Part shown: piece by piece, positions 58,484-61,823 of the stretch | How positions within the stretch are numbered: position 1 is the first letter of the stretch | Layout of the letters: each line of letters opens with the position of its first letter | Assembly (NCBI GenBank): GCA_937139415.1 | Contig: CAKZPS010000023.1 | Coordinates: 1 to 64,000 of the forward strand | Direction: 5' to 3' | Length of the DNA stretch: 64,000 nucleotides | Source: an uncultured bacterium | Lineage (GTDB): Bacteria > Atribacterota > Atribacteria > Atribacterales > Caldatribacteriaceae | Notes under the pieces: model-generated | What the model saw: only the letters and a program-made list of their open reading frames with translations | Database searches by the model: none | Told to the model about the DNA's origin: nothing | Position numbers and translations under genes: made by a program

Positions 58484-58666
58484 TTGTACAATCCTGAGGG
58501 GTTGTGTCAGGTTTGTCGTCACTGCGATCCTGAATTGAAGAAGCAGGGTATTTACCGTTGTCTTTTAGGGGAGAAGAAAGAACGGACTCAACCGGTAGAT
58601 CGCTGTGACTATTTCTTTCCGGATCACCTTCACTCCGCAGAGAACGTTTCCGATCCTACAAAGTAG
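58484..58666 (+). CDS. Small cysteine-rich protein
   Basis: A 60-residue protein with C-x2-C-x2-C early (LCQVCRHCDPE), a Cys near residue 26 (YRCLLG) and one near 41 (DRCDYFFP). This resembles a small metal-binding or cluster-binding protein; I do not know a family. It starts with TTG 58484 behind AAGGGGG and overlaps the ksgA start by one base, so the two are coupled. Confidence 0.6.
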   Translation: MYNPEGLCQVCRHCDPELKKQGIYRCLLGEKKERTQPVDRCDYFFPDHLHSAENVSDPTK

Positions 58667-59697
58667 TGCGCAGGAAATTCGGCCAGCATTTTTTGCACGA
58701 TGCCAACCTCGTCGAACGCATTGTCCAGAGTGCGTTCCTCTCCGAGGAAGACTTAGTTATTGAAGTCGGTGTGGGAAGGGGAGCGTTGACTCGGTGTTTG
58801 GCGCTGAGGGCAGGTCAGGTCATAGGCTTCGAGATTGACCCATTTCTCTACAAGGAAGCACGAAAGAAATTGGCAGATTATGCCAATGTTTCTCTGGTGT
58901 GCGAAGATTTTCTCCGCGTGAAGCTCGAAGAATTCCTTCGTCCTTATCGCTCCATGCGGGTGAAATGTGTTTCCAGCATTCCCTATGCTATCTCTACCCC
59001 TCTCCTCTTCCATCTCGTGGGAAGCAATGTCCCGTGGCAGACGCTCGTTCTCTTAGTACAAAGGGAATTCGGGGAGAAAATGTACCGTTTCCCTCCCCAA
59101 GGACGGGGGAGTTTACTCGCCTTAGCGGTTCATCTCCTCTTTCGGGTGGAAAAGCTCTTTGTAATTCCCTCCTGGTCTTTTACTCCTCCACCACGGGTTG
59201 TGTCTCTTCTCGTCCGTCTCATACCTCGAGAGGACCGCATCGGGCAAGAGCAGTATGTGACGCTCATGCAGTGGGGGCGCTTTTTCTTTTCCACCCCGCG
59301 GAAATCAATGGGAACCCTCTTGGCTCGAAAACTCGCTTCGAGGAGCGAAGCCGAGGAATTACTCACCGGTTTAGGTATCTCTCCTTTACTCCGGCCAGAA
59401 GAACTCGATCGCAACGAATGGTTAACTCTCGGTGCTGCTCTTTCTCTATATCCACCGCAGGCGAGGTCGAGGGAGGATGCGACCTTTCCAAGTAGAACGT
59501 CCGGTGATGGTGAAAATGAGGGATCGAAAAGCCACGTAAGAGAAGACGCTCAAGTTGAGAGGGTAGAGAATGGCGAAGTACCAGGGAAAACGGAGGCGTG
59601 CCATTCCCAAAAACCAGAGGAGGAGCATCTCTCCCACCGCCCAAAGGGCGAGCCGATCCGAGGGAAAGAGGGAAAAGGAAGTGATCCGTGTCACTAA
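58666..59697 (+). CDS. ksgA: KsgA-like rRNA dimethyladenosine transferase
   Basis: A 343-residue protein. KFGQHFL (4-10) and the SAM loop IEVGVGRGALT (32-42) are standard for KsgA/RsmA, which dimethylates two adenosines near the 3' end of 16S rRNA. The catalytic motif, normally NLPY or NIPY, reads S104-I-P-Y, so the key Asn is Ser. FTPPPRVVSLLVRL and the C-terminal helical region are normal up to about residue 266. The last 75 or so residues are hydrophilic and lie entirely antisense to the downstream glycosyltransferase gene. GTG start. Family membership is clear; activity is not. Confidence 0.85.
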   Translation: MRRKFGQHFLHDANLVERIVQSAFLSEEDLVIEVGVGRGALTRCLALRAGQVIGFEIDPFLYKEARKKLADYANVSLVCEDFLRVKLEEFLRPYRSMRVKCVSSIPYAISTPLLFHLVGSNVPWQTLVLLVQREFGEKMYRFPPQGRGSLLALAVHLLFRVEKLFVIPSWSFTPPPRVVSLLVRLIPREDRIGQEQYVTLMQWGRFFFSTPRKSMGTLLARKLASRSEAEELLTGLGISPLLRPEELDRNEWLTLGAALSLYPPQARSREDATFPSRTSGDGENEGSKSHVREDAQVERVENGEVPGKTEACHSQKPEEEHLSHRPKGEPIRGKEGKGSDPCH

Positions 59698-60603
59698 AAT
59701 AACAATTGGTTCCCCGACCAAAAATCCCATCCATACCCATACGAGGAAGTAGGGGAGGAGACGGTAGTCGAACACCGCGAAGAGATTTTTGGTGAATTCT
59801 TCCATTGCCTCTCGGAAGTTCAGGTACATCCGACAGGACACATAGGCTCCTGCGTCTACGATCCCCAAGCGCAAACGAGCTCTCTTTGCTCGCCTGGCGA
59901 TGGCTATATCGTCCACCGGTTCGCTGGCAATCGCCCTGTGTCCTCCAATTTTCTCGTAGGCACTGCGACGTAAAAGGAGGAACTGACCGTGAGCAAGAGC
60001 AAAGAAAGGAACACGGGGACTCTGCGCTAAAGGAATGGAGAAGAAAGAGAAAAGGCACCAAAAGGCCGAAGTGACAATAATACCTTCTCGCCAGCTGGAA
60101 ATTTCTTCCTTTACGAAAGCGGTGAGGAGGTCGAGTTTTCTTGTGAGGAGTTCTGCTACTGCTACCCGCAGAGCAGAAGGTTGGTGAAGAGTGTCAGCAT
60201 CGGTAAAGAGGAAAAGCTCGCCTTGAGCTTGCTGTGCCAATTGATGGCACGCCCAGTGTTTTCCTATCCATCCCCCAGGGAGGGGTTTTCCTCGCAGGAG
60301 GCGTAGGTGGGGATAAGAAGCGGCCAGGGCTTTGAGTTTTTCTCTGCTTCCATCGGTCGAATGGTCGTCGAGCACGAGAATTTCGAAATGTGGGTAGTCC
60401 TGATTGAGGAGAGAATGGACTACTGAAACAATATTTCTTGCTTCGTTCCGCATCGGGAGGAGGATAGATACCAAGGGAATCTCGGGGAGCGGAGTCTGAT
60501 CCCGTAATCGCCGTAAGGAGAGGGAATTGGTGATGGCGATGAGGAGGAGAATTCCCAGGAATACGTTGAGACTCACTTGATGGGCGAGGAAAAACTCTTT
60601 CAT
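59446..60603 (-). CDS. Membrane family-2 glycosyltransferase
   Basis: A 385-residue protein: an N-terminal hydrophobic helix (about 12-30), a GT-A catalytic domain (about 45-250) with PMRNEARNI, VLDDHSTDGS, FTDADT and a later DDIAIARRAKRA segment (QxxRW-equivalent region), then two or three C-terminal transmembrane helices. The layout matches carotenoid/hopanoid-lipid type transferases (CrtQ, HpnI groups) that glycosylate a membrane lipid. Its start overlaps the PlsY-fusion stop by 4 bp, so the two are made together. Its 3' end runs antisense to the ksgA tail. Confidence 0.88.
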   Translation of the reverse strand: MKEFFLAHQVSLNVFLGILLLIAITNSLSLRRLRDQTPLPEIPLVSILLPMRNEARNIVSVVHSLLNQDYPHFEILVLDDHSTDGSREKLKALAASYPHLRLLRGKPLPGGWIGKHWACHQLAQQAQGELFLFTDADTLHQPSALRVAVAELLTRKLDLLTAFVKEEISSWREGIIVTSAFWCLFSFFSIPLAQSPRVPFFALAHGQFLLLRRSAYEKIGGHRAIASEPVDDIAIARRAKRARLRLGIVDAGAYVSCRMYLNFREAMEEFTKNLFAVFDYRLLPYFLVWVWMGFLVGEPIVILVTRITSFSLFPSDRLALWAVGEMLLLWFLGMARLRFPWYFAILYPLNLSVFSYVAFRSLIFTITGRSTWKGRILPRPRLRWI

Positions 60604-61823
60604 CGGGAGCTCCCTCCTTTGCGAGAGTAGAAAGGACGGAGACGCGGAGGGGTACGGAGTTCCTGGTAGTGTTTAGCAAGGATAAGGGTAACATTTCCTC
60701 CCCACACGAGGAAGAGAGGCAAAGGAGCACCAGAATGAAGGAGGGCCAAGAAGAGAATCGCAAAACCCAAAATTGCCGACCAGGCATCGGTAGTATTCAC
60801 GAGGAGAGCGATGCTCAATGAACTCCCGAGGATCACCGGGCCGAACCACAGAGTAAGGGCGGTCCAAATTCCGAAACTCGAGGCAATACCTTTGCCGCCC
60901 CGCCAGCGGAGGAGTGGGGAAAAAACATGACCTATCACCGGCGCCAAAGCCGCCGGAATTATCCCCCACTCGCTCGTCTCGATGCTTCGAGAGGCGAGGT
61001 AGGCCGGTATAGCTGCTTTCAGATAATCAGAAAGGAGGGAGGGAAAACCCACTCGCCATCCCCCTGCACGCCAAGCATTGGCTGCACCGGGATTACCGTC
61101 ACCGTAACGGCGAATGTCTATCCGGGCCAAGAGACGTCCCAGCCATACCGCGAAGGGACAAGAACCAGAGAAGAAACCAACGAGTGACCAGAAGAGAATC
61201 ACCTGCAAATTGGGTGAGGAAGTCTCGGGTGGAGTGAAGAAGCGCTTAATTTTGGAGCAAAACTGCGGGTCTCCTCCGGGGATTTCCCGCTCTCCATAGG
61301 CAAGGAGGTAACGCCCCACTCGTCCTTGAGGATGCCAGATTACTAAGCGGTAGGTCCCCGAAGTAGGAAGGGTAACGCGGATCCTTTGACGCCGCCAATA
61401 AGAAGTTCGGCTCCAAGACTCGTAAAAGGGGGAAGGGGTCTCTTCCGGAGGAGTAAAGAGGAGTATCCCTTCTCCCTCTACAAGGGGGAGGTAAGGAGGT
61501 AAATCTCTTCTCTTTGCAGGGAGTCCCGGCCCAAGGAGCACCATGAGAGGAGTAAAATCCTCGTGTCCCTGAATCTGGGGGATGAGGATGGAGAAGAGCA
61601 CTTCTCCCTGTGCGGGGAAAGAGAAAACGAATGCATCGACATCTCCCGGGAATTCCAACGTCCCATAGAAAGCAGTAGCGATATGGGGGTTTTCTATGAG
61701 CCATGGTGCTTTTGGGGAGATATCTTGTTCTTCGAAGAAAGGTTGATGGGCGAGGAGGGAAGGAACAGAGAAACCCAAGGAAAATATCGCAACCCCTATG
61801 ACTATCAACTGCTTACCTTTCAT
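60600..61823 (-). CDS. plsY: PlsY acyltransferase with an N-terminal secreted domain
   Basis: A 407-residue protein. Residues 1-25 are a signal peptide (PSLLAHQ); about 28-190 form an all-beta extracytoplasmic domain with FPGDVDAFVFSFPAQGEV and a late TSGTYRLVIWHPQG, reminiscent of PPC-type folds. After a membrane segment, residues about 210-395 are PlsY: GSCPFAVWLGRLL (motif 1), YGDGNPGAANAWRAGG (motif 2), GHVFSPLLRWRGGKGIA (motif 3). PlsY transfers an acyl group from acyl phosphate to glycerol-3-phosphate and is normally about 200 residues with five helices. All its motifs are kept. It is coupled to the glycosyltransferase. Confidence 0.88.
   Translation of the reverse strand: MKGKQLIVIGVAIFSLGFSVPSLLAHQPFFEEQDISPKAPWLIENPHIATAFYGTLEFPGDVDAFVFSFPAQGEVLFSILIPQIQGHEDFTPLMVLLGPGLPAKRRDLPPYLPLVEGEGILLFTPPEETPSPFYESWSRTSYWRRQRIRVTLPTSGTYRLVIWHPQGRVGRYLLAYGEREIPGGDPQFCSKIKRFFTPPETSSPNLQVILFWSLVGFFSGSCPFAVWLGRLLARIDIRRYGDGNPGAANAWRAGGWRVGFPSLLSDYLKAAIPAYLASRSIETSEWGIIPAALAPVIGHVFSPLLRWRGGKGIASSFGIWTALTLWFGPVILGSSLSIALLVNTTDAWSAILGFAILFLALLHSGAPLPLFLVWGGNVTLILAKHYQELRTPPRLRPFYSRKGGSSR

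Follow-up and report, generated by a model that had tools for sequence, protein, structure and literature searches.

Proteins that match the Pfam family PF02660 are routinely annotated as PlsY, a glycerol-3-phosphate (G3P) acyltransferase. PlsY (aaPlsY, structures 5xj5-5xj9) is a protein of seven helices with its active site in the cytoplasmic half of the membrane; Ser35, Arg45, Lys104, and Asn180 form the clamp for the G3P phosphate (PMC5700162). The S35A variant has 4.8% of its activity left (PMC5700162, Table 2), as does T41A, for which the Km for G3P is not raised; N180D has 3.3% activity with a 22-fold higher Km for G3P, which its authors explain by charge repulsion from the phosphate of G3P (PMC5700162). 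The same study found Asp at position 35 in 2.7% of 7,288 homologues. A second group of described systems comes from carotenoid biosynthesis. Carotenoid glucoside esters have been reported from Chloroflexus (PMC4155588), and acylation of carotenoid glycosides has been proposed for Thermomicrobium roseum trd_1162, which joins a carotenoid hydroxylase to a C-terminal acyltransferase domain (PMC2615216). In predicted role, the enzyme discussed here comes closest to the carotenoid glycoside acyltransferase CruD and to the trd_1162 acyltransferase domain: it would acylate a sugar that a carotenoid glycosyltransferase has attached.

The window that we analyzed, 64,000 nucleotides of contig CAKZPS010000023.1 from an uncultured member of the Caldatribacteriaceae (assembly GCA_937139415.1), contains a minus-strand open frame of 407 codons with zero internal stops (60600-61823) in which a PlsY-type protein follows an exported domain. 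The protein begins with a signal peptide (residues 1-25, 61749-61823) that has a predicted cleavage site ahead of His26 (LLA|HQPFF). A hydropathy segment at residues 2-27 and an AlphaFold2 helix at residues 3-23, followed by a low-confidence stretch at 20-31, mark the same region, and the AHQPF motif is common to all 26 aligned rows at an identical position. Next come a secreted beta-sandwich domain resembling PPC domains, the HQPFF domain or N-domain (residues 26-198, 61230-61748), a short linker (residues 199-207, 61203-61229), and a domain that we call PlsY2 (residues 208-398, 60630-61202), which Pfam, fold, and tree place in a clade of the PlsY/PF02660 family with Asp at position 35. The AlphaFold2 model, built from an alignment of locus sequences (mean pLDDT 85.9, pTM 0.72), has the N-terminal helix, strands between residues 41 and 176, and a helical C-terminal half with the seven-helix PlsY fold; Foldseek superimposed this predicted half on PlsY 5xj7 over 185 columns, with an rmsd of 2.4 and a TM-score by target of 0.82. 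An earlier note on this DNA had read the frame as a fusion of two domains, with a signal peptide and an all-beta domain ahead of a PlsY-type domain. Both readings stand, and structure prediction and Foldseek gave the corresponding PPC-like beta domain and PlsY fold.

The fusion is conserved as well as real. A search of 48 genomes recovered the two-domain architecture end to end in six others, all from one Chloroflexota order, at 53-56% identity over nearly all 407 residues, and the linkers of these genes and of the window align without a stop, open and in register in 7/7 fused genomes. In comparisons among the six Chloroflexota fusions, dN is 0.06-0.19 for the two domains, much lower than dS. 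A frameshift or assembly error that joined neighboring genes would find some encouragement in the Caldilineaceae, where the two domains occur as separate, near-adjacent genes, and the earlier note had proposed that such separate genes would speak against the fusion. Such an unfused pair does exist, but it is no refutation, as the fused form is present in six other genomes. With an in-frame fusion and an open linker in six other assemblies, the artefact has already been refuted and is scarcely credible. The contig is also native to its host, since the M55 gene adjacent to the fused gene has 56-63% identical orthologues within the window's own family and order; contamination of the contig was rejected on the same grounds. 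No other fusion was found among 50 genomes of the window's phylum. In two genomes of the window's family (G001 and G002), PlsY2 is a bare gene followed by a glycosyltransferase gene of the same type as that in the window, and the window copy sits apart from them in the PlsY tree, inside the Chloroflexota fused clade (100/99; the clade includes one bare copy, L119). This position suggests that the fused gene was acquired by lateral transfer, with an exact place in the tree that is unsure because the branch is long (0.78). Literature searches found no description of a PlsY fusion of this kind, but the surprise at this locus is likely to be a switch of acceptor more than the fusion itself.

That switch is suggested by the PlsY2 domain. 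PF02660 matches residues 215-389 (7.5e-35, 120.9 bits, gathering cut-off 24.1), which makes the protein a member of the superfamily. Against the PlsY equivalog TIGR00023, the fused copy scores 90.5 bits with a cut-off of 137.2, and other PlsY2 proteins also fall below (95.8 and 103.4 for two Anaerolineae fused copies, 109.3 for a Caldilineaceae PlsY2). The earlier note had wondered about a second, ordinary PlsY, and the genome has one: a protein of 206 residues (contig C16 of the window's genome) in the gene order fabZ-fabH-fabF-plsY that passes the equivalog cut-off at 171.8 bits. In the tree, PlsY2 and ordinary PlsY separate with 100/100 support. The presence of this ordinary copy elsewhere in the genome, together with an equivalog model that it passes and PlsY2 fails, counts in favor of an acceptor switch.

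Alignment to aaPlsY with the published numbering (PMC5700162) places the changes at individual residues. In motif 1 (residues 238-252, 61068-61112), Asp242 stands for Ser35 and Ala248 for Thr41, and Arg252 retains Arg45. Motif 2 with its acyl-phosphate hole (residues 298-314, 60882-60932) keeps His92 as His299 and Lys104 as Lys311. Motif 3 (residues 384-396, 60636-60674) keeps His177 as His385, replaces Asn180 with Glu388, and has lost its RL...GxE tail. The earlier description of a PlsY that keeps all three catalytic motifs therefore holds for motif 2 but fails for motifs 1 and 3, and the G3P phosphate clamp reads Asp/Arg/Lys/Glu. Relative to PlsY, the window protein shares the seven-helix fold, His92, GGK104, Arg45, and His177, but it differs at sites 35 and 180 and in motif 3 and adds an exported N-terminal domain and a glycosyltransferase partner. 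The acidic clamp runs through nearly the whole clade. Every PlsY2 row of the alignment has Asp in place of Ser35, and all readable rows but one (Gly in L127) carry Asp or Glu at the Asn180 site; in a wider comparison of loci, a few distant Asp35 copies have other residues at site 180. Ser142 and the RL...GxE tail are also lost from PlsY2. The ordinary PlsY copies of the window's phylum keep both Ser35 and Asn180, whereas Ala at position 41 is found in the window, in some other PlsY2 proteins, and in some ordinary copies of that phylum as well. Full-length PlsY2 rows retain His92, Lys104, Arg45, and Ala107, and His92, GGK104, Ala107, and Arg45 are kept across nearly the whole clade. His177 is kept in most PlsY2 proteins and is Tyr in three (G032, G033, and L147). 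A third kind of PF02660 protein was seen in two Chloroflexota loci (L061 and L065), with Glu, Phe, and His in place of Lys104, His177, and Asn180, respectively; judged by the published clamp residues, these are unlikely to be working PlsY enzymes.

Two readings of PlsY2 that depart from an acceptor switch can be weighed with these residues. The earlier note took the protein as PlsY with an added outer domain that might sense the envelope, which would make it a second G3P acyltransferase for a conditional or special phospholipid pool. PF02660 membership, the PlsY fold, and the retention of Arg45, Lys104, and His177 agree with that proposal. Yet two clamp residues are acidic in nearly the whole clade, the equivalog cut-off is missed, the genome already has an ordinary PlsY, and the N-domain is a standalone protein elsewhere, so that PlsY proper with a sensor is not supported and a second G3P acyltransferase is improbable. 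Alternatively, PlsY2 could be catalytically dead, a membrane anchor or scaffold that holds the glycosyltransferase and the exported domain. The altered motifs 1 and 3 and the Ala at position 41 would fit, but an anchor has no need for the His92, GGK104, Ala107, and Arg45 that nearly the whole clade maintains, and comparisons between fused copies give a low dN/dS for the PlsY2 part; we consider a dead enzyme very unlikely. With the clamp turned acidic and charge repulsion already invoked for aaPlsY N180D, the PlsY2 acceptor would be one that lacks the phosphate of G3P.

A candidate for the enzyme that supplies such an acceptor is encoded directly downstream. The start codon of a GT2 glycosyltransferase gene (59446-60603, minus strand; PF00535, 6.6e-25) overlaps the PlsY2 stop codon by 4 bp (ATGA) in the window. 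This GT2 resembles both HpnB and CruG, with 163.7 bits to the former (cut-off 379) and 117.5 bits to the latter (cut-off 600), and neither name applies because both scores are far below the curated cut-offs. Among fetched loci with a PF02660 relative, which were not picked for the presence of a GT2, a GT2 of the CruG/HpnB type lies within 700 bp of 38 of 48 Asp35 copies and 0 of 38 Ser35 copies; the Fisher p of ~4e-15, computed on 37/47, overstates the evidence for this association because related genomes are not independent. The ten exceptions include five in which the site-180 column is cut off by the end of the stretch, one at a contig end, and one broken gene, and copies L140, L148, and L149 have no GT2 within 700 bp. 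On the opposite strand, an rsmA/ksgA-like open frame (58666-59697, plus strand) overlaps the 3′ end of the GT2 gene by 252 bp in antisense orientation, which adds a polar C-terminal tail of ~85 residues to its product.

In the Chloroflexota, PlsY2 and GT2 are found among genes for carotenoid biosynthesis. The order in Caldilineaceae is a CarH-like MerR/B12 regulator, lycopene cyclase (PF18916), N-domain, CruF (PF04240), PlsY2, GT2, and phosphopantetheinyl transferase, with the N-domain and PlsY2 as separate genes and phytoene synthase (PF00494) nearby in some loci. Genome G057 has consecutive open frames for lycopene-cyclase-like, CruF-like, PlsY2, and GT2 proteins, and a single contig of G262 carries phytoene synthase, lycopene cyclase, DUF6992, a tocopherol-cyclase-like protein, a CrtI-like member of the amine oxidase family, PlsY2, and GT2. 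In G291, CruF (PF04240) and PlsY2 (PF02660) share one open frame of 477 codons (L128:14-1444, minus strand), a layout that matches the hydroxylase and C-terminal acyltransferase described for T. roseum trd_1162; a search of 400 Chloroflexota genomes returned no further end-to-end match to this CruF::PlsY2 protein. In L110, L111, and L112 the fused gene has a CarH-like gene close by, which a family search confirms for L110. The frequent GT2 partner and the carotenoid context are further points against a second G3P acyltransferase. A locus in G032 (L035:485-4684), a genome without phytoene synthase, has PlsY2 and GT2 beside a CrtI-like gene of the amine oxidase family and a secreted DUF2141 protein.

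The sequences themselves show a conserved fusion, altered residues, a GT2 partner, and a setting in carotenoid clusters, and from them we infer a chemistry, an acceptor, and a role for the outer domain. PlsY2 is probably an acyl-phosphate-dependent acyltransferase that acts on the sugar added by its partner GT2 to a membrane lipid. The enzyme would still use acyl-phosphate because the site for that donor is kept, and it would no longer acylate G3P because the clamp for G3P has turned acidic. In the proposed sequence of events, GT2 would glycosylate a membrane-embedded alcohol first, and PlsY2 would then transfer an acyl group from acyl-phosphate at the inner face to a neutral hydroxyl, most likely on that sugar. 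For carotenoid-making Chloroflexota, the alcohol would be a hydroxycarotenoid made with CruF, and the products would be carotenoid glycoside esters. An alternative in which PlsY2 acylates a lipid alcohol or other non-sugar hydroxyl before or instead of glycosylation, so that GT2 and PlsY2 modify different positions of one lipid, would agree equally with genes that travel together, since such linkage says nothing about which reaction comes first or where on the lipid each takes place. Against it, the products reported or proposed in Chloroflexota are sugar esters (glucoside esters, PMC4155588; acylated glycosides, PMC2615216), and we regard acylation away from the sugar as unlikely.

Acylation of the glycoside itself also meets opposing evidence. 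PF00494 (phytoene/squalene synthase) is absent from the window's genome, from all 50 genomes of its phylum, and from the six other fusion carriers. The fused form was found only in genomes without this synthase, whereas relatives with separate genes, such as G262 and L049, have it. The window's host differs from the CruD and trd_1162 systems in its lack of a phytoene synthase; without PF00494 the carotenoid parallel offers no acceptor to the fusion carriers, and a standard carotenoid or hopanoid product in this host was rejected. The acceptor lipid in fusion carriers is thus not a standard carotenoid or hopanoid, and the alcohol in the window's host would be some other lipid. The Ala at position 41, the Asp35 copies without GT2, and the Tyr at position 177 in some PlsY2 proteins count against glycoside acylation as well. 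A broader proposal, which we put forward tentatively, is that PlsY2 constitutes an unrecognized class of acyl-phosphate-dependent glycolipid acyltransferases, derived from PlsY through acidification of its phosphate clamp, that arose with the synthesis of carotenoid glycoside esters and moved in fused form into non-carotenoid bacteria. These hosts would then make an acylated glycolipid, and the fused exported domain would bind lipid or envelope.

Glycoside acylation by the Asp35 clade would mean that a few percent of PlsY annotations are wrong, given the 2.7% of 7,288 homologues with Asp at this position (PMC5700162). Such an activity would supply an acyltransferase for the carotenoid glycoside esters of Chloroflexota and point to a further acylated glycolipid in carotenoid-free lineages. 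A residue swap offers a direct test of acceptor choice in PlsY, and through the fusion the outer-face domain can be assigned to the same pathway.

The exported domain has its own distribution. Foldseek matched the predicted model of the N-domain to the collagenase collagen-binding/PPC domains 2o8o, 1nqd, and 5sv5 (TM-score by target ~0.70, E ~1e-4, and 16-17% identity for 2o8o and 1nqd). The likeness lies in the predicted beta-sandwich fold; the window's domain is a separate sequence family with a mature N-terminus of HQPFF, and it is attached to no peptidase. Residues 1-205 matched zero Pfam families at E values up to 10, the PPC model thus included, and when the N-domain sequence was compared with solved structures, no match rose above chance level, potassium channel proteins being the best. 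Motif 3 follows the last helix on the cytoplasmic side, which would put the N-terminus of the fused protein outside and therefore suits an exported domain. The outward-facing orientation proposed earlier is in this way probably correct, although the sensor attached to PlsY proper is not supported. For the outer domain, our guess is a role in retaining the acylated glycolipid or passing it on, or else in attaching the enzyme to the envelope. We rejected copper binding by His26 at the mature N-terminus, since His26 is invariant but no second His occurs among the 18 invariant residues.

The N-domain sequence by itself recovered no relative from the genome contigs, and an alignment of two rows was needed to find a standalone secreted N-domain protein at 18 Chloroflexota loci, 38-48% identical to the window. 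Most of these genes lie within carotenoid clusters, close to PlsY2 and GT2. In G001, of the window's family, a standalone N-domain gene elsewhere in the genome is directly followed by a gene for a DUF6992 (PF22503) membrane protein (L033:5595-5972), and another DUF6992 gene belongs to the G262 carotenoid cluster (L127:4316-4786), which suggests that these membrane proteins share a pathway with the N-domain. A search of phages found no match, and among plasmids the N-domain recovered only distant Halobaculum proteins (L041:2986-4005 and L042:1947-2969), in which the exported domain is joined to a different C-terminal membrane region of several apparent helices.
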